Shown in pieces: positions 30,028 to 38,572 of a stretch of 38,572 bases of DNA. The first letter of the stretch is position 1. Each line of letters starts with the position of its first letter. This DNA is from an uncultured Alphaproteobacteria bacterium (GTDB lineage Bacteria > Pseudomonadota > Alphaproteobacteria > UBA7985). The stretch is taken from the NCBI GenBank assembly GCA_905479265.1, contig CAJQLX010000051.1, forward strand, positions 1 to 38,572, in the 5' to 3' direction. The translations under genes were made by a program, and so were the position numbers. A model generated the notes under the pieces. That model was not told where the DNA came from. It made no database searches and worked only from the letters and a program-made list of their open reading frames with translations.

Positions 30028-31497
30028 ATGCGGCTTTCTCTTGCATTTGTTCGGTTTTTGTTTCATTGGGGTTTTATGACGGAAGACATACTCATTTTCA
30101 TCGACGCACTCCCGGACTGGGTGCTGATTGCCGTGCCCATGCTGCTGGCGGCGCTGTTTGGCTGGGTTTGCGCGGGCTTGTGGCAGCGCGGCACCTTGCA
30201 CGAGGCACAGCGGGCCGCGGCGACCGCCGATGCGCAGTTGGAAGCCGTGCGAGAGCAACTGGTCCAGCGAGAGGCGCAGGCGAATGAACTGCGTGATGGC
30301 ACGACGGATCTTGCCGCTGAAAACAGTGCGCTGCGCGCAAGGTTGGAGGCGCAGGCGAGCCAGTTCGCGCAGCAAGCTAAGACCTTGGGTGACGTGCGCG
30401 GTGAATTGGAAAAAGAGATGAAATTGCTGGCGCAGCAGGCGTTGCAGTCCAATCAGCAAAACTTCATCACGATGGCCAATCAGGTGTTTGAAAAGCATCG
30501 GACAGCGGCTTCTGGCGATCTGGCGCAGAAGAAAGAGTCGATCGCGGCCATGTTGAAGCCCTTGGGTGAGACGGTCGCTCGCTACCAAAAAGAGCAGCGC
30601 GAGGCTTACGGTAACCTCAGTCAGGAAGTTCAATCGCTGGCCCGGCAGTCGGCGACGGCTGCCTCTGCGACGGGTAAACTGGTCAACGCGTTGCGCGCCT
30701 CGCCTAAGACGCGCGGACGGTGGGGTGAGCATCAGCTCAAGACGGTTCTTGAGCTTGCCGGCATGTCTGAGCACGTTGATTTTGAGACTGAAAAGACCTT
30801 GCAGGGCATGGAAGGCACGGTCCGGCCCGACGCCGTGATTCGGCTGCCAGGGGAGCGTTTCATTGTTGTTGATGCAAAAACGTCCTTATCTGGCTATCTG
30901 GAAGCCCTTGAGACCGATGATCCGGCTTTGCAAGACGCCGCGTTGCTGAAGCACGCCAAAGAAATACGGTCGCACATGCGGGGGTTGGCGGAAAAGAAGT
31001 ATTGGACGGCCCTGCCGTTCACGCCTGACTTCGTGGCCATGTTTATTCCGGGCGAGAACTTCTTTGCCGCGGCGGCGGAGCGTGACCCGACTTTGTTCGA
31101 AGATGCGGTGGCGAAGAAGGTGTTGATTGTAACGCCGACAACGCTGGTCGCGCTGTCAAAGGCGATTGCCTATGGCTGGCGGCAGGAAACCATGTCCAAA
31201 AACGCGGCAGAAATCGCGGAGACGGGGCAGGAGCTGTACAAGCGCTTGGCCAATCTGGGGCAGCGCGTTTCTGATCTCGGTGATGCCTTGACGCAGTCAG
31301 TCAATCGGTACAACGGCTTCATTGGAACGCTGGAGGGTCAAGTCATGCCCCAAGCGCGCAAGTTCAACGATCTGCAGGTCGAAGGATCCCAGGATCCATT
31401 GCCCAAGCTGGAGGTTCTGGATGCCGATCCGCGTGACCCGAAGCGTGGCCGGGATTTGCAGTTCGATTTCGACGTTCCACCCAAGCAAGTTCAGTAG
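30028..31497 (+). CDS. rmuC: DNA recombination protein RmuC
   Basis: The 489-residue protein has a short N-terminal membrane segment ('VLIAVPMLLAALFGWVCAGLW'), a long coiled coil (~residues 55-190, rich in A/E/Q heptads) and the RmuC nuclease-like domain with the family marks 'KTRGRWGEHQLKTVLELAGM' and 'VVDAKTSLSGYLEAL'. RmuC limits DNA inversions and rearrangements, probably as a PD-(D/E)XK-type nuclease tethered to the membrane. ATG 30028 has AGGA five nt upstream; ATG 30076 (MTEDIL) is a fair alternative that keeps the membrane segment. It is divergent from the small membrane protein gene. A small hairpin (TTCCCGG/CCGGGAA) follows the stop but lacks a T-run. Confidence 0.93.
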   Translation: MRLSLAFVRFLFHWGFMTEDILIFIDALPDWVLIAVPMLLAALFGWVCAGLWQRGTLHEAQRAAATADAQLEAVREQLVQREAQANELRDGTTDLAAENSALRARLEAQASQFAQQAKTLGDVRGELEKEMKLLAQQALQSNQQNFITMANQVFEKHRTAASGDLAQKKESIAAMLKPLGETVARYQKEQREAYGNLSQEVQSLARQSATAASATGKLVNALRASPKTRGRWGEHQLKTVLELAGMSEHVDFETEKTLQGMEGTVRPDAVIRLPGERFIVVDAKTSLSGYLEALETDDPALQDAALLKHAKEIRSHMRGLAEKKYWTALPFTPDFVAMFIPGENFFAAAAERDPTLFEDAVAKKVLIVTPTTLVALSKAIAYGWRQETMSKNAAEIAETGQELYKRLANLGQRVSDLGDALTQSVNRYNGFIGTLEGQVMPQARKFNDLQVEGSQDPLPKLEVLDADPRDPKRGRDLQFDFDVPPKQVQ

Positions 31498-31823
31498 GTT
31501 TCCCGGCGAGTCTGATCCCGGGAACGGCGCATTCGCGTATAATGCGGGAATGATGCGCGATTCGTGGCGTTAGGCCTGTAACACGTCGCAATCCCGCCCT
31601 AGTTGCGCCTCAAATCGCCATTTCCCCTGCGTCAATACCCTGTCAAACGCAGATTCGGGCCGAAAAAGAGAAAAAAGGGTTTAAATTTCATCTAAAGTGT
31701 TTTTTACCGCTACCTATGTATTCGCGCGAAGACCATCCGTGTTTTGCACGCGTGTAGTTTGAGGCCAACCTGTTCGGTACTGAGCAGGACGCCGCGCTCA
31801 TCATGGTGACGGAGATGACGACA
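31498..31823 (+). promoter_or_regulatory. 326-bp leader of the large surface-protein gene
   Basis: No gene is seen. It holds a hairpin TTCCCGG-11nt-CCGGGAA right after rmuC (31500-31524), a nested inverted repeat CGCATT-CGCGTAT-AATGCG (31528-31546) that includes a TATAAT hexamer (31538-31543) without a good -35, and an AT-rich tract at ~31660-31720. A long untranslated leader is plausible for a highly expressed surface protein. Confidence 0.4.
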
Positions 31824-34800
31824 ATGATGTTAGACAGCCAGGACGCAAGCCAAGTTCTGACCAACGACCCCGCTTTTGAGCCGATGGAACGTCGGCAAGT
31901 GGCCAAGAAGAACTTGCGTGGAAAGGGCGGCGCGTTGATGGCGTCCTCCGCGATGATTGCTGCGGCAGCGGCGTTAACGATCGGCGGCGAAGCCGTGGCA
32001 CAGGGTGTACCGTCTGGCTTCGCGCCAGCACCATCCGATGTCGTGTCCTACGTCCAGCTGTCCAACGGCTCCGTTTTGGTGCAGTTGGCCAACCAGCAGT
32101 CCCTGTTGGTGACCTCCAACAACTTCTTCATCGACGGCAGCGGCGTGCTCTACTTGAGCCCCAGCGTCTCGTCCGGCATTTCCGGTGGTGGCGCCGCCGT
32201 ATCCAGCGCCATGACCGCCACAACCGGCTTCCCAACGCCATCCGCGCCAATCGGCACGACGAACTTGGGCCAGACGTCCTCCGGCGTGATCTTCGATGAC
32301 GTCAGCGCCGCAGCATCGTCCGGCGGCATTCTCGGCACCATCACCGGCGGCCCGGGCCTCTTCGGCTTAGGCACCATCGGCACCGTCGCAGCAATCGGCC
32401 TCGGCGGCGGCGCAATCCTGCTCGCAGCCAACGCCATCCGCGCGCAGTTGTCCGACGACGACGACGCAGCCACCGGCAACCAAGCCGCCTCCGTCGCTGT
32501 CATGGACGATGATGTTGAGGTTGGTGAGACCGACGGCACGCTGACCTACGCCATCACCGACCAAGACGGCATCGACGAAAGCGACCTGATCGCCTCCCTC
32601 GAAGCCGGCCTCGACGGCGCATCCACCATCGCCTCGGTCTTCCCCAACGGCGCGACAGTCTCGACCGAGCGCACCGGCTCCGGCCTGGTTGATGGGACCG
32701 AAGACACCTACCGCTCCATCAACGTCACGCTGACCGGCGACATTTCCGGCAGCTTGAACGTGGGCGAGTTCACCGGCCCGTCCGTTTCCTTTACCGATGC
32801 CGCGGGCAATGACGAGACCGTCAACCTCGCCCTCAACATCACCTCCGGCACCGCGGGCACCACCGGCAATACCGGCAGCACGGGCAACACCGGCACCTCG
32901 TCGCTGGAGCTGAACGCAGCCGATGGCGGCACCTACACCATCCCGCAAGGCGGCACCTACTTGTTCCGCGCTACCGACAGCGAAGGGGACACCGTCTCCT
33001 ACGAGATCGACAACAACCCAACCGGCGTCGGCATTGACAGCAACACCGGCTTGGTGACAGTCGCCAGCTCTGTTGCGACGGGCAACCACACCATCACGGT
33101 GACCGCGACCTCGACCAATTCGGACGGCTCCGTCGATACGGATACCGAGACCTACAACATCGAAGTCACGTCCAACGGCTCCACCTCGCCGACCAACACG
33201 GTTGACGCGGACTTTGACAGCACGGGCGCAGGGTTCAGCACCCTGAACGGCCAGAACATCACCGACAGTTCGCTCGCGACCAACGATGATGACGAGTTCG
33301 AAGTGCCAAACGCCACCGATCTGGCCAACTCCTACGTGATCGACGGCTTGGCCGGCGCGGATACGCTGTACTTCTCCGAGTTCGGCGCGACCTACCACCT
33401 CGACCCCACCGACCAGAACAGCTTCGAAGACGTTGCCGGCTTCGAAACCCTCACGCTGCTCTCCGGCGTAGACCTCGAAATCAACGGCGGCGTGCTTGAT
33501 AGCAGCAGCACCGGCGACATCGAGTATATTCAGGGGACGACCGAAAACCGCGTGACGCTGGTCAACACCGACGCTGACATGGGCTTGGATGTTTCCCTGA
33601 CGGGCATCGAGACCATCGACATGAACAACTATGACCTCACGCTCGATTACGCCGATCTCGCCGGCGTTGATATGATCGAGGGCGATACCGAGTCCGTGCT
33701 CGTGTTCACCGGTCAGTTCACCTACGACTTCGCCGACGCCATGATCGACACCACCGACGTGGTGCGCTTGGGCATCGACGCGGGCAATTACGACTACAGC
33801 CTCACGCTCGACGGCATCCACGACGAAGACGTCACCCAGATCTACGCCTACGGCGAAAACCAGATCGAAGGCGACGTGATGATCGACACGCGTGAAAACG
33901 CGAAAGTCACGCTGATCGACCTTGCCGGTGACCAATACACCACCGGCGGCCTGTCCGGCTCCTCCAACATCTTCGCGACCTATGATGATGAGTTGACCAT
34001 CCTCGGCGGCGACAACGATGACGACGTAGACCTGACCCTCGACAGCGATGTCGAAGACGGCGAGTTGCACATCGACCTCGGCGACGATGCGCAGGATACG
34101 CTGAACATCAACCTGAACGGGGACGAGATCGACACACGCGGCTTTGGTCGCCACATCGACCACGTCGAGTACGTCAACGTTGACGCGCCACAGGGCGACG
34201 GCGAAGCGCACTTGCAGTTCAACGGGTCCAGCGAAGACGTCAGCACCCTGCGCGTGCTGGATATGTCCGACCTGTCCGAAGACGGCGGCATCTACCTCGC
34301 CGGTGATCTGTCACAAACCTCCGGCTACCGCGCTGATACGGTCAGCAGCATTGGCTTTGTCGCGGATATCAGCTCCTTTGAGTTCGCGAACATCGCATCC
34401 ACGGCACCGCTGGCGGGCGATACCTCCGCTGGTACGTTCCAAGAGCTGCTGATGATCGACGGTTATGTCAGCGATGACGACCTCGAAATCACCATGACCC
34501 CGGGCGACGACGTGATCGAAATGATCATCGGTGAATCCGAATACCTCGTAACGCTGTCTGCCTCTGGCACGCAGTACACGCAGGAAGTCAACGCAGCCGC
34601 TACCACGTTTACGGTGCCTCAGTTGTCCATGCGCAACATCGCAAACCTCGGCAACGGCAACCAGTCGTTCCTGAGCACGACCGCAGCAACCACGCTTGGC
34701 GGTTCAGTGGACGGCGTGACGCTGACCAACACCATCGCCGAAGGCGCGGGTGAAGTTGACCTCGAACTCGGCGGCGGCGATGACCAAATCAGCCTCGTGC

Positions 34801-35408
34801 TCGGTTCGGCGCAAACCTCAAACGTCACCCTGCACGTGGCGCGCGCGGATGCGGACGACTTCGACACCATCGACTTCGACGTGCTCGAAGACATGGGCGT
34901 ACAGGCCGTTGCACAAGCGAACAGCGCAACGGGCAACGCCTACTTCGCCGTCGATGCTTTGGGGAACGCCAGCGGTCTGGAAATCGACTTCCAAGACGAC
35001 GTGACACAGATCCTCACGGACGTGAGCGCCATTGACTCCGGCTCGATCGACGTTGCGAACTCGACCCAAGGCACCGTCATCGTCTACGGCATGAACACCA
35101 ACTCGGTGCAAAAAGGTTTGCTGTACGATTACGATGGTGATGGCCAGTTGTCCGATGGCGATACCGTCATCGACCTGACCGACGCCTTGCTGGCACAGGG
35201 ACAGGCTGCCGGGGCGGCCTTTGGCTCCGTTGGCATCTGGATTGACTCCGATGGCGACGGCGCACTCACGGGGGATGTGGCGACGGAGTTGTATGCCTCC
35301 AACGCCTCCATCATCAACGCGACTCCACAGTCCATCGGGATGATCACAGACGGCCTCGATTACATCGAGTTCGCGCTGTCCGGTGGCGACCTTGTGGACG
35401 TTGCCTAG
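31824..35408 (+). CDS. Very large surface protein, S-layer/adhesin-like, Ca-binding C-terminus
   Basis: The product is about 1,194 residues. After a ~35-residue polar leader comes a signal-like hydrophobic stretch ('ALMASSAMIAAAAALTIGG' then EAVAQG), and at ~180-206 a second hydrophobic Gly/Ala segment. A cadherin-like stretch (~residues 360-455) has 'ATDSEGDTVSYEIDNNPTG'. The centre is a long series of Asp/Thr/Gly-rich beta strands. Near 1102-1113 lies an EF-hand loop DYDGDGQLSDGD, with a second partial one (DSDGDGALTGD, ~1141). I see no cysteine and very few lysines. Codons end overwhelmingly in C, a sign of high expression. The start 31824 is chosen for GGAG 9 nt upstream; ATG 31803 is an alternative. 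An abundant S-layer or adhesin-like protein is the best guess; no RTX repeats or autotransporter barrel are visible. Confidence 0.75.
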   Translation: MMLDSQDASQVLTNDPAFEPMERRQVAKKNLRGKGGALMASSAMIAAAAALTIGGEAVAQGVPSGFAPAPSDVVSYVQLSNGSVLVQLANQQSLLVTSNNFFIDGSGVLYLSPSVSSGISGGGAAVSSAMTATTGFPTPSAPIGTTNLGQTSSGVIFDDVSAAASSGGILGTITGGPGLFGLGTIGTVAAIGLGGGAILLAANAIRAQLSDDDDAATGNQAASVAVMDDDVEVGETDGTLTYAITDQDGIDESDLIASLEAGLDGASTIASVFPNGATVSTERTGSGLVDGTEDTYRSINVTLTGDISGSLNVGEFTGPSVSFTDAAGNDETVNLALNITSGTAGTTGNTGSTGNTGTSSLELNAADGGTYTIPQGGTYLFRATDSEGDTVSYEIDNNPTGVGIDSNTGLVTVASSVATGNHTITVTATSTNSDGSVDTDTETYNIEVTSNGSTSPTNTVDADFDSTGAGFSTLNGQNITDSSLATNDDDEFEVPNATDLANSYVIDGLAGADTLYFSEFGATYHLDPTDQNSFEDVAGFETLTLLSGVDLEINGGVLDSSSTGDIEYIQGTTENRVTLVNTDADMGLDVSLTGIETIDMNNYDLTLDYADLAGVDMIEGDTESVLVFTGQFTYDFADAMIDTTDVVRLGIDAGNYDYSLTLDGIHDEDVTQIYAYGENQIEGDVMIDTRENAKVTLIDLAGDQYTTGGLSGSSNIFATYDDELTILGGDNDDDVDLTLDSDVEDGELHIDLGDDAQDTLNINLNGDEIDTRGFGRHIDHVEYVNVDAPQGDGEAHLQFNGSSEDVSTLRVLDMSDLSEDGGIYLAGDLSQTSGYRADTVSSIGFVADISSFEFANIASTAPLAGDTSAGTFQELLMIDGYVSDDDLEITMTPGDDVIEMIIGESEYLVTLSASGTQYTQEVNAAATTFTVPQLSMRNIANLGNGNQSFLSTTAATTLGGSVDGVTLTNTIAEGAGEVDLELGGGDDQISLVLGSAQTSNVTLHVARADADDFDTIDFDVLEDMGVQAVAQANSATGNAYFAVDALGNASGLEIDFQDDVTQILTDVSAIDSGSIDVANSTQGTVIVYGMNTNSVQKGLLYDYDGDGQLSDGDTVIDLTDALLAQGQAAGAAFGSVGIWIDSDGDGALTGDVATELYASNASIINATPQSIGMITDGLDYIEFALSGGDLVDVA

Positions 35409-35475
35409 CGCCAACAACCAACCACACGACCCAGTAAACTAAGGCATTTAAGCCACCCCAGGGGAACATTTCAAA

Positions 35476-35510
35476 GGGGGTCCGCGCCAACGCGTGCGGG
35501 CCTCCTCTTT
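35476..35510 (+). terminator. Hairpin between the two large surface-protein genes
   Basis: GGGGGTCCGC (35476-35485) pairs with GCGGGCCTCC (35496-35505) through 10 bp including two G-T pairs, loop of 10 nt, followed by TCTTT. The T-run is imperfect, so it may end most but not all transcripts of the first gene, or protect its 3' end. AAGGA for the next gene follows. Confidence 0.5.
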
Positions 35511-35538
35511 CCAACGCTAGATCTTAAGGAACGAGATA

Positions 35539-38049
35539 ATGGCGAACCTACTTTCCAGCTTTCTGAACGGAAGCAGCACGTTTACCTACAACAACGGCAC
35601 AAACGTTATCCCGAGTTACACCCTCGTCCAGCCAACGTTTTCCAACACGTCCACGGGCGCGTCGATCTTCAACCAAACCTTTGGCTCCAGCAGCAGCTTC
35701 GGAAATTCCCTGCTGTTCGGTTCGTCCTTAGGCGGCTCGACGCTGACCGGCAGCTTTGGAAACAGCTTTAACGTCGGCGGTTTCAACACCTCCTTCAACT
35801 ACGGCTCGCTCGGCAACGGCTTCGGCTTTGGCACAATAGCTCGCACTTCGACGACGCCAACGACCACGACGACCCCTTCGGGAACGACGATTGCGACGAA
35901 GCAGATTGCTGAATCTAATGCAGCGAATGATTCAGTTCTGTCGTTTGTTACCTCTGATTTCGCCTACGCGAATGGCGATGCCGTCGATAGTTTGCAGATT
36001 TCTGTTCTTCCAGAATACGGCACTTTGGAGCTGAATGGTGCTGCCGTGTCTTTGAATCAGTACATCGACGCTGATGACCTGAGTGACTTGAGCTATGAAC
36101 CAGACGTGGATTTTGATGGCACTGACTATTTTTCCGTCAAGCTCAGCACGGATGGTACGACCTACGACAGCTCGAATTCGAATGTCACCATATCTGTTCT
36201 AGGTGAGAACGATGCGCCAACGTTGGACGCTACTTCGCTCATTTCTGTTGTTGAAGGTGAAACCGCAACTAACGTCGGCTCGGCGATGGTTAATGCCTTT
36301 AATGATGTAGATACAGGTGACTCGATCGGGTCGTTAACAATCACCAGTATCTCAACTTACCAGTACGGCACTCTTTCCTACGTTTCTGATAGCGGAAGCA
36401 CGATAACAATTTCAGACAGTTCGTTAATTGGTTATGAGTTAAGTCCAACTGAGGCTAATTCATTAAAATTCTCTGCTTTGGATAATTCGGTCGCTTCTGG
36501 GAGTTACCCGCCCGTAAAAATAAATTTTGACGTCACTGACAGTTATGGCGTTTTGAATGCTACTGCTGACGAAGGCACAATTAGTATTCAATTAAACGAC
36601 GGTAATGATGCTCCAACGTTTGCAGCCACAACAAAGACCTACAATACAGTAGAAAATGACACTGCCATAACAGGCATGGTGCCAAATCCTGCTGAAGATG
36701 AGGAATCTAATTCACTGCTGACATACAGCATTGCTGGAACAGACTCTAGTTTCTTTAGCGTCAATTCTGCGAACGGGGCCATTACCTTCAATGACGCACC
36801 TGACCATGAAGATCATCAAGATTCCGACGTTAATGGCACCTATGAGCTAACACTTACTGCCACTGATCCGCAGGGTGCGACAGCAGTACAATCACTTAAG
36901 GTATTAGTGGGCAATCAAATACAATCGTTAAATTTGACCGCTCTGAGCTCTGCAATCACGATTGATGAAGGTGAAACTGCGATTACAACTGTTACTGCAG
37001 GGACTAACGATGTTAGTAACTCAATTTCATACAGTATTTCTGGGACAGACGCAGATTTGTTCACAATTGATGAGGATAACGGTACGCTTTCTTTCGTTTC
37101 GGAACCAGATGCAGAAAACCCGGACGACTCAAGTAGTAATAACAGCTATTCAATCACAGTGAAAGCGACTGACGAATCAGAAGCAGTATCGGCTGCAACA
37201 AAAGCAGTCACGATTACCGTCAATGATATTGAAGATGAAAATGTAGAATTTATTGCAGCATCAGCACCATCAACTAGTACTCCTGCATCAGATTATATTC
37301 TGGAATCGACCAATGAAGGCGACCTAGAAGTTTTGCTAGTCGAAGGATATACGGCATCCCCGGCTGAAAATCTGATTGCGCTTAGCTTCACTAATGGTGA
37401 GTCTAGTTTGACGGGCGACCTTGGACTTACTCCAAATCTGACCTATGACTTGGAAAACAGCGCTGGAACTACTAACTTTACTGTTTCAACAGCATCAAAT
37501 GGTAGTGGCGCGACGGCCAATTATTCTCAAGTTTACATCCAGTATTCGTCTACTTCCACTGATACTTTAGATTTTGAAGAAGCGGATGAGATTACGCTTA
37601 CACTTGTGGCGACGGATAATGAAGGTACGTCAGCTCAGACAGACGTGACTATAACAATTTTGGACGATAACGAGTCGCCTGAATACGACGCGCCAGCAAG
37701 AGCTGGCGTAGCCGTAGGGGGTACCGCGCCGATTGGTGATAGCATCTTCCGGAGTATGACAGATCCGGAAAATGATGCCCTTACTTTTAAGATTACTGGT
37801 ATGTCAACTACCCAGTCTGTGAATCTACCGGGCGGTGACGTTGAGTATGACTGGACGGGTTTAGGTCATTACGTTGAGCTTACACCCGGCCCATCTGCTC
37901 CCACATTGAACGAGGTTGAGGTTCGTTCTCTAAGGTTCGTCGAAGATGACGGGGATTTGGGAGTTATAACGCTGAGCTATGAAGCAATCGATAATGATGG
38001 GTCTCAGATCGCTAATACGGACGGCCAGATTGAAATTTTGATTTTCTAA
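35539..38049 (+). CDS. Cadherin-like repeat surface protein with FG/Ser-rich N-terminus
   Basis: The 836-residue protein has no signal peptide. Residues 1-~105 are low-complexity Phe/Gly/Asn/Ser (SSFGNSLLFGSSLGGSTLTG and similar), followed by a Thr/Pro linker (~103-118). From ~125 a chain of Ig/cadherin-like domains follows: one with 'LSDLSYEPDVDFDGTDYFSV', then ones opening at NDAPT (~224 and ~356), cadherin units with 'GTDSSFFSVNSANGAITF' and 'GTDADLFTIDEDNGTLSF', and two more to the end. The C-terminus 'GQIEILIF' is acidic then hydrophobic, as in many type I secretion substrates, but no RTX repeats or transporter genes are present. No cysteine was seen. AAGGA precedes the ATG. Codon use is C-rich up to ~residue 115, then clearly more AT-rich, so the gene looks like a mosaic. 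Confidence 0.76.
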   Translation: MANLLSSFLNGSSTFTYNNGTNVIPSYTLVQPTFSNTSTGASIFNQTFGSSSSFGNSLLFGSSLGGSTLTGSFGNSFNVGGFNTSFNYGSLGNGFGFGTIARTSTTPTTTTTPSGTTIATKQIAESNAANDSVLSFVTSDFAYANGDAVDSLQISVLPEYGTLELNGAAVSLNQYIDADDLSDLSYEPDVDFDGTDYFSVKLSTDGTTYDSSNSNVTISVLGENDAPTLDATSLISVVEGETATNVGSAMVNAFNDVDTGDSIGSLTITSISTYQYGTLSYVSDSGSTITISDSSLIGYELSPTEANSLKFSALDNSVASGSYPPVKINFDVTDSYGVLNATADEGTISIQLNDGNDAPTFAATTKTYNTVENDTAITGMVPNPAEDEESNSLLTYSIAGTDSSFFSVNSANGAITFNDAPDHEDHQDSDVNGTYELTLTATDPQGATAVQSLKVLVGNQIQSLNLTALSSAITIDEGETAITTVTAGTNDVSNSISYSISGTDADLFTIDEDNGTLSFVSEPDAENPDDSSSNNSYSITVKATDESEAVSAATKAVTITVNDIEDENVEFIAASAPSTSTPASDYILESTNEGDLEVLLVEGYTASPAENLIALSFTNGESSLTGDLGLTPNLTYDLENSAGTTNFTVSTASNGSGATANYSQVYIQYSSTSTDTLDFEEADEITLTLVATDNEGTSAQTDVTITILDDNESPEYDAPARAGVAVGGTAPIGDSIFRSMTDPENDALTFKITGMSTTQSVNLPGGDVEYDWTGLGHYVELTPGPSAPTLNEVEVRSLRFVEDDGDLGVITLSYEAIDNDGSQIANTDGQIEILIF

Positions 38050-38082
38050 TTTGGATGGTTTCCAATTAGAGATAATTAGAGA

Positions 38083-38107
38083 GGGGCGCTTTTGCGTCCC
38101 TTTTTTT
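38083..38107 (+). terminator. Intrinsic terminator after the cadherin-like gene
   Basis: GGGGCGC (38083-38089), loop TTTT, GCGTCCC (38094-38100) and seven T residues form a standard terminator 34 bp after the stop. Confidence 0.9.
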
Positions 38108-38176: not shown

Positions 38177-38223
38177 GTTTTGTAGCGCGCGTGGCGCGCT
38201 GGTCCTCGATGGCGATACAAAAC
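38177..38223. repeat. Nested palindromic element
   Basis: GTTTTGT (38177-38183) and ACAAAAC (38217-38223) enclose a second perfect hairpin AGCGCGC-GTG-GCGCGCT (38184-38200). TGTAGCG/CGCTACA provides an alternative pairing. It stands in a gene-free, G-rich/C-rich segment after the terminator and may belong to the same class of structured repeats as the next element. Confidence 0.55.
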
Positions 38224-38289
38224 GCTACATCCGGTGCGGCCCCCCATTCCACCCCCACCATCCCAGCATTCCCCCACCAATCCTGACGG

Positions 38290-38572
38290 CCCGCGCGAGA
38301 CCCCGTCTCTGGCCTTGCCCTATCGCTGCATGCCATCCCCCAGCCCTCCCTGAGTGGCCGCGCAGCGGCTGTATCGAAGGGGCCGCGCGAGGCTCCGTCT
38401 CTGGCCTTCCCCCTTCGATACGCTCTCCGAGCTACTCAGGGAGGGTTTATCGCTGCATGCCATCCCCCAACCCTCCCTGAGTGGCCGCGCAGCGGCTGTA
38501 TCGAAGGGGCCGCGCGAGGCTCCGTCTCTGGCCTTCCCCCTTCGATACGCTCTTCGAGCTACTCAGGGAGGG
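38290..38572. repeat. 127-bp direct repeat with cloverleaf-like inverted arms, running off the window
   Basis: Copies begin at 38321 and 38448 (TATCGCTGCATGCC...), period 127 bp, and a partial third copy (CCGCGCGAG...CCGTCTCTGGCCTT) lies at ~38291-38316. In one unit CCCTCCCTGAGT (38344-38355) pairs with ACTCAGGGAGGG (38434-38445), GTATCGAAGGGG (38371-38382) pairs with CCCCTTCGATAC (38410-38421), and small hairpins GCCGC-GCA-GCGGC (38357-38369) and GCTC-TCC-GAGC (38422-38432) fill the sides. The second copy changes the latter loop to TTC and keeps the stem. It resembles REP/BIME-type intergenic repeats. Confidence 0.85.

Follow-up and report, generated by a model that had tools for sequence, protein, structure and literature searches.

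A tandem array of REP dimers in an uncultured alphaproteobacterium, probably an orphan member of a mobile palindrome family linked to GIY-YIG nucleases

The window, by which we mean the whole 38,572-nt stretch of DNA analysed here, ends in a tandemly amplified, BIME-like array of REP dimers that is probably an orphan member of a mobile, GIY-YIG-linked palindrome family. The palindrome family occurs in many bacterial phyla. Judging from gene neighbourhoods, its partner is one subfamily of small GIY-YIG nucleases and not a RAYT, and the window's array would be a local, orphan example of this nuclease-linked family. The window is the entire contig C51 of a host genome of 2.89 Mb in 61 contigs.

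Structure of the array

Tandem Repeats Finder placed a repeat of period 127 at 38321-38572, with 2.0 copies and 98% matches. Unit 1 spans 38344-38470; unit 2 follows from 38471 and is broken off by the window edge. Each 127-bp unit is made of two REPs in opposite orientation, REP-L (+) and REP-R (-), with the 27-nt linker A between them and the 25-nt linker B after REP-R. In unit 1 these are REP-L at 38344-38382 (core 38348-38381, hairpin GCCGC-GCA-GCGGC at 38357-38369, covariance model 42.3 bits), linker A between the inner arms at 38383-38409, REP-R at 38410-38445 on the minus strand (core 38411-38441, hairpin GCTC-TCC-GAGC at 38422-38432, 50.2 bits), and linker B between the units at 38446-38470. 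In unit 2 they are REP-L at 38471-38509 (core 38475-38508, 42.3 bits), linker A at 38510-38536, and REP-R at 38537-38572 (core 38538-38568, 49.3 bits), which runs to the contig end. The REPs were delimited by the pattern and the covariance model, in unit 1 also by the fold, and the linkers by sequence comparison.

An earlier note on this DNA had described a 127-bp repeat array that folds into a cloverleaf, each unit with two nested, perfect 12-bp arm pairs and two side hairpins, and all of this is real. The outer arm pair of unit 1 is formed by 38344-38355 and 38434-38445 and the inner pair by 38371-38382 and 38410-38421, each 12 bp and perfect. The nested arms are the flanks common to both REPs, and the side hairpins are the REP hairpins. 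Folded as single-stranded DNA, the centroid structure of unit 1 is exactly the cloverleaf, with a minimum of -34.5 kcal/mol versus -19.67 +/- 2.5 for shuffles (z -5.93).

The note was also right that the array runs off the window: the same array occupies positions 1-163 of contig C61, where a single REP pair is complete, its left member being mutated. The reported change of the REP-R loop from TCC (unit 1) to TTC (unit 2) is correct and C61 adds TGC at that position, the stem remaining constant throughout. What had been taken for a truncated third copy is indeed incomplete, but it is not a cut-off cloverleaf: this unit 0 (38288-38343, plus strand), which matches later units at 84% over 38 nt, keeps linkers A and B on direct comparison and lacks both REPs with their hairpins. 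The array is compatible with the suggested gain or loss of units by recombination. A terminator-like hairpin (38078-38105, plus strand) lies between the array and the gene upstream; we give it as context only, about one such site being expected by chance. Another imperfect palindrome (TTTTGTAGCGCGCG...CGCTACA), unrelated to the array, was noted just upstream of it at 38178-38232.

The REP frame and its dimers

The REPs share the frame CCT-GA-G-(variable hairpin)-T-C-GA-AGG, or CCTGAG...TCGAAGG, which we read as an outer stem, a tandem GA/GA, a G-C pair, a bulged T, one or two pairs and a free hairpin. Tandem GA in such a setting would be a stable DNA motif. The pair beside the bulge is T-A, G-C or C-G, depending on the subtype, and the outer stem also varies with compensatory change.

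In our alignments of 16 copies and of 30 rows, only the inner hairpin is informative and counted as evidence, because the query pattern fixed the flanks. Among the 16 aligned copies, 98.3% of cells were paired versus 90.5% in shuffles, there were 11 double-change cells versus 2.3, and the covariation score was 0.217 versus 0.064, with none of 500 shuffles scoring as high; any slide of the partner destroys the structure. The 30-row set gave a covariation score of 0.254 versus 0.101, with two of its five measures reached by shuffles (68/500 and 30/500). The remaining counts were made over 86 copies, 65 distinct cores and 25 close pairs, from 80 loci of the at least 120 stretches that a named-genome search for the exact pattern returned. 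A stem of at least 4 contiguous base pairs is present in 71% of the 65 cores, versus 9% (maximum 18%) when the halves are shuffled. From the covariation and the stem counts, copies elsewhere do preserve the pairings through compensatory changes, as the earlier note had proposed to check.

Most of the close pairs (at most 200 bp apart) are outward-facing, that is +- with CCTGAG outside (17/25), while four are -+ and four have the same direction; the window's pair across linker A is of the outward-facing kind. By eye, some dimers have a common linker (the groups L058/L070 and L093/L095/L126). Copies fell in ORF proxies in 23 of 86 cases versus 88% of random positions, and the window array is itself intergenic. 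With alternating palindromic units, short linkers and clustering, the array has the anatomy of a REP dimer or BIME. The earlier note had thought of something more complex than a REP hairpin, and the unit is indeed a REP-type element made of paired palindromes. A second, nested TGAG..TC(G/A)AA motif lies inside the hairpin in 10 of the 86 copies (Sphingobium and others); we noted such nested REPs in Sphingobium and Sphingomonas at L064, L083, L115, L132 and L134. In Solimonas marina (L107:3199-3310) there is a same-direction REP tandem with a 6-nt ACAGGC spacer, whereas arrays elsewhere alternate.

Distribution of the palindrome family

In the host we found eight exact matches of CCCTGAGTN{5,30}GTATCGAAGGG (control 0) and ten covariance-model matches at three sites: the array, C11 and C24. 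The host thus lacks the high copy number of a REP dimer or BIME, whereas other genomes hold up to 82 pattern matches, this maximum coming from the wider pattern CCTGAGN{4,30}TCGAAGG in one genome whose control gave 2. Of 41 genomes, namely the host and 40 relatives, 29 have matches to the wider pattern, and the exact pattern is present in 7 of 385 genomes of the class; by exact pattern and covariance model, the array's subtype is absent from five other genomes of the genus. Among the matches listed, the family occurs in Sphingobium, Herbaspirillum, Defluviicoccus, Nitrospinota, Bacteroidota, Gordonia, Calditrichaceae and others. The genome-wide count and map that the earlier note had called for turns up further copies both in the host and in many phyla.

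A Marinimicrobia MAG (L094:5897-5927) has a 31-nt REP identical to the REP-R on C61, in unrelated flanks. An exact GTATCGAAGGGG at C6:66174 was inspected by eye and rejected, being without the REP partner half. A phage element was also set aside, since a viral contig collection has the exact TA~TA pattern in only 10 stretches.

Linkage to a subfamily of GIY-YIG nucleases

In one REP-rich genome, a GIY-YIG ORF lies between two REP dimers, and its tail and stop codon are inside a REP. Relatives of this ORF were found at five other loci, the distance to a REP being 11 to 105 bp in every case, in a search that also covered the other 40 of the at least 120 stretches. Because these first loci had been fetched for containing the REP, the search was restarted from the protein, using a GIY-YIG profile (A3) built from two proteins whose genes were found beside REPs. 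Matches at E <= 1e-8 occurred in 132 of 385 genomes of the class. They fall into two clusters with a gap in E-values between them, and we set the border at this gap after seeing the values; the strong cluster comprises 49 loci (E <= 2.7e-19) and is a subfamily of PF01541 (GIY-YIG).

A REP lies within 300 bp of 39 of the 49 subfamily genes, and on both sides in 24, with a REP density of 2.04/kb near the genes and 0.01/kb farther away. The 40 matches that rank next are GIY-YIG proteins outside the subfamily, and a REP was found at two of them (39/49 vs 2/40, Fisher 1.7e-13, or 3.4e-13 with the seed locus removed). The strict pattern found no REP at 10 of the 49 genes, and its union with the wider pattern none at six, so that 43 of 49 loci are REP-linked once changed outer stems are allowed. 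At 19 of the 24 two-sided loci, the gene is preceded by REP(+) and followed by REP(-), the same orientation as in the window's dimer, where a linker stands instead of the gene. Both flanking REPs are of one subtype at 24 of 25 genes, versus a shuffled mean of 6.6; this comparison covered the 49 loci plus L103, L116 and L145, and the 25 two-sided genes include L145. The window's own TA~TA subtype flanks a nuclease gene in L282, L103 and L116.

Across 34 genomes scored for both the wider REP pattern and the nuclease profile, a strong nuclease is present in five of eight REP-rich genomes (at least 10 matches) and in none of 26 REP-poor ones (Fisher 2.0e-4); in the profile search, the REP-rich genomes G014, G017 and G026 had no strong match. 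The nuclease tree, made from 40 of the 42 labelled proteins (those with at least 75 residues), shows modest clustering by REP subtype, with 17 changes versus 20.4 when shuffled and 2 of 200 shuffles as low. We also examined four of 20 plasmid records, all outside the 49 loci: two Methylobacterium records have REPs on both sides in the order (-,+), one Sphingomonas record has one strict REP match, and one record is without any. In the Methylobacterium records, L353 and L354, which are replicons of Methylobacterium bullatum and M. aquaticum, the GIY-YIG matches have no listed gene, the PLSDB table being incomplete, and GGTG...CC-type REPs flank the match on both sides in reverse orientation.

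Two loci of the MAG YP3.bin125 look as we would expect an autonomous element and its miniature derivative to look. L145 has a REP(+), a frameshifted GIY-YIG gene and a REP(-), and L079 has the two REPs of L145, the same start of the gene and a 29-residue remnant, with the middle lost. By losing the middle of its gene, a REP-gene-REP element would become a REP-linker-REP dimer of the kind seen in the window's unit.

A different reading of these data is that the palindromes are passive, serving in mRNA 3'-end protection, termination or gyrase/IHF binding, and that GIY-YIG genes merely insert in or near them. Their intergenic placement would fit this, as would the position of the array downstream of a gene and a terminator-like site, and the presence of short-type REPs between rmuC and hom in three relatives as well (see below). 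However, the identical subtype on the two sides of the gene, the fixed REP orientation around it and the deletion derivative at L079 all point to one element and away from random insertion, and we consider the passive reading improbable.

Comparison with RAYT-linked REPs

The earlier note had suggested that the array might be a target of a REP-type transposase, with an association to a RAYT, and this was not borne out. Y1_Tnp was found in none of six genomes, the host and five relatives of the genus. In a set of 38 made up of the host and element-carrying genomes, 18 have one. Of 50 Y1_Tnp loci, one has a family member within about 1.5 kb. The wider pattern raises this to two, and no convincing further member comes from the covariance model; a REP-flanked Y1 RAYT gene, as in REPIN-RAYT systems, was not found in the genome. 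We therefore rejected a RAYT/Y1 transposase as the partner.

It can still be argued that the array is a classical REPIN or BIME moved by a RAYT (Y1 tyrosine HUH) transposase that was lost or missed. Its dimer anatomy, tandem clusters and intergenic placement do fit the GTAG REPs described in the available text of PMC3733652, and many copies have an internal GTAG. GTAG REPs as defined there by Di Nocera are continuous stem-loops with an unpaired terminal GTAG, whereas here GTAG is internal with conserved flanks outside it, and related subtypes have GGAG, GCAG, GGTG or another sequence instead. Together with the Y1_Tnp counts, this makes a RAYT-moved element very unlikely, and a GIY-YIG-linked family remains the reading we prefer. 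More generally, BIMEs and REPINs with RAYTs in Pseudomonas and E. coli (PMC3116915 and PMC3733652, as far as the available text goes) likewise have opposed REPs with a linker, tandem clusters and intergenic positions. They differ in that here there is no RAYT in the host or beside the family, the neighbour is a GIY-YIG gene, and a frame of tandem GA and bulged T surrounds the hairpin.

Also comparable are the CGTC-tagged REPs, which according to the available part of the 2013 survey (PMC3733652) have no dedicated transposase and which share with the present family outward-facing dimers, an occurrence in many alphaproteobacteria and the absence of a RAYT. They are defined there by a CGTC, TGTC or CCTC tag, a continuous stem of 8-9 bp, a loop of 4-5 nt and a 3-nt tail; in contrast, the family described here has GA/GA, bulges and a variable hairpin. 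CCTCA or TGTCA precedes 33 of the 86 family copies (80 loci of the at least 120).

The nearest known system and a proposed mechanism

Ssn of Neisseria is reportedly a site-specific GIY-YIG nuclease that cuts single strands and is paired with the palindromic NTS repeats. By analogy, the Ssn/NTS pair is probably the nearest known system, since both combine a small GIY-YIG nuclease with a short palindromic repeat, and at the level of the family the nuclease gene adjoins the repeat (39/49 vs 2/40). The repeat sequence is different, however, REP dimers and tandem arrays occur here as putative non-autonomous derivatives, and the REP is a predicted target of the nuclease. The host also has repeats without the gene: neither it (96% complete) nor the relative G005 has a GIY-YIG match at E <= 1e-8 in the profile search. 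UPF0213/YazA-type GIY-YIG proteins of solved structure (1zg2, 1ywl), named only as hypothetical UPF0213 proteins, belong to the same fold family by sequence (E 2e-15), in contrast to which the subfamily stands out by its REPs, the 40 next-best GIY-YIG genes not being REP-linked (2/40). Among the literature matches listed, none ties GIY-YIG to REP, and those found by sequence motif were unrelated papers alone. The available text of RepRanger (PMC12306157) mentions neither GIY-YIG nor RAYT.

We infer that the nuclease cuts the REP and that the element moves in the following way. As Ssn and NTS would suggest, the nuclease may recognise the REP hairpin as single-stranded DNA and cut at that point; when the cut is repaired or the cut DNA copied, REP-gene-REP elements would spread, as would their gene-less derivatives, which are the dimers. 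The host array would be an orphan, non-autonomous remnant, orphan because no nuclease of the subfamily is recognisable in the host; the gene may have been lost, may lie in the absent 4% of the genome or may have acted from another replicon. Local expansion by 127-bp duplication, and loss of the hairpins by deletion in unit 0, could both have come about through ordinary replication slippage or recombination.

A broader proposal, which we find about as easy to doubt as to believe, is that CCTGAG/TCGAAGG palindromes belong together with small GIY-YIG nucleases in a single class of minimal mobile element, found in many bacterial phyla. REP-nuclease-REP would be the autonomous form, homing or copying into REP dimers via cutting of single-stranded DNA hairpins, and REP-linker-REP dimers and tandem arrays would be its miniature derivatives. 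Many genomes have palindromic repeats without a known transposase, the CGTC type being an example according to the available text of PMC3733652, and such a class, if real, would give REP-like repeats without a RAYT their missing mover. A multi-phylum palindrome family is linked by these data to one specific small nuclease, and, given an apparent autonomous copy and its deletion derivative, the spread of such repeats becomes testable at the bench.

Genomic context of the array

On C61 the array is followed by the homoserine dehydrogenase gene (hom), and in three relatives (G002, G004 and G005) hom is directly preceded by rmuC, which in the window is at 30028-31497. Because rmuC and hom are neighbours in these relatives, C51 and C61 most likely join at the array. 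An assembly artefact of a repeat-rich draft genome might be suspected, as the array is located at two contig ends, but the units differ by single bases in loops and linkers, and the rmuC and hom neighbours imply that the two ends belong together, so we give this explanation very little credence. Least credible of all is the earlier note's other suggestion, a structured RNA or riboswitch-like element, for although there is a stable RNA fold (z -6.96), the RNA of unit 1 favours one long rod and not the cloverleaf, which is a DNA fold, copies lie in both orientations and on both strands, and we found no Rfam match, only a tRNA in the window and no promoter-like site.

The array of REP dimers thus sits in the rmuC-hom gap, which in the host also holds two ORFs and in the relatives is about 300 bp long. 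The two ORFs were probably acquired. One encodes 1201 aa without a Pfam match, and the other 836 aa with cadherin and Big_9 domains. In the relatives, the gap (L243-L245) holds a shorter palindrome of this family, CCTTCGAC-NGG-CTCA-GGG, which in G002 differs by one mutated base. Given that a short-type REP is found in the orthologous gap of all three, this site has held such repeats repeatedly or for a long time. As a minor observation, the two gap ORFs span 31803-38049 of the window, and the GC content of the cadherin/Big_9 ORF is 0.45 versus about 0.58 at the rmuC gene.
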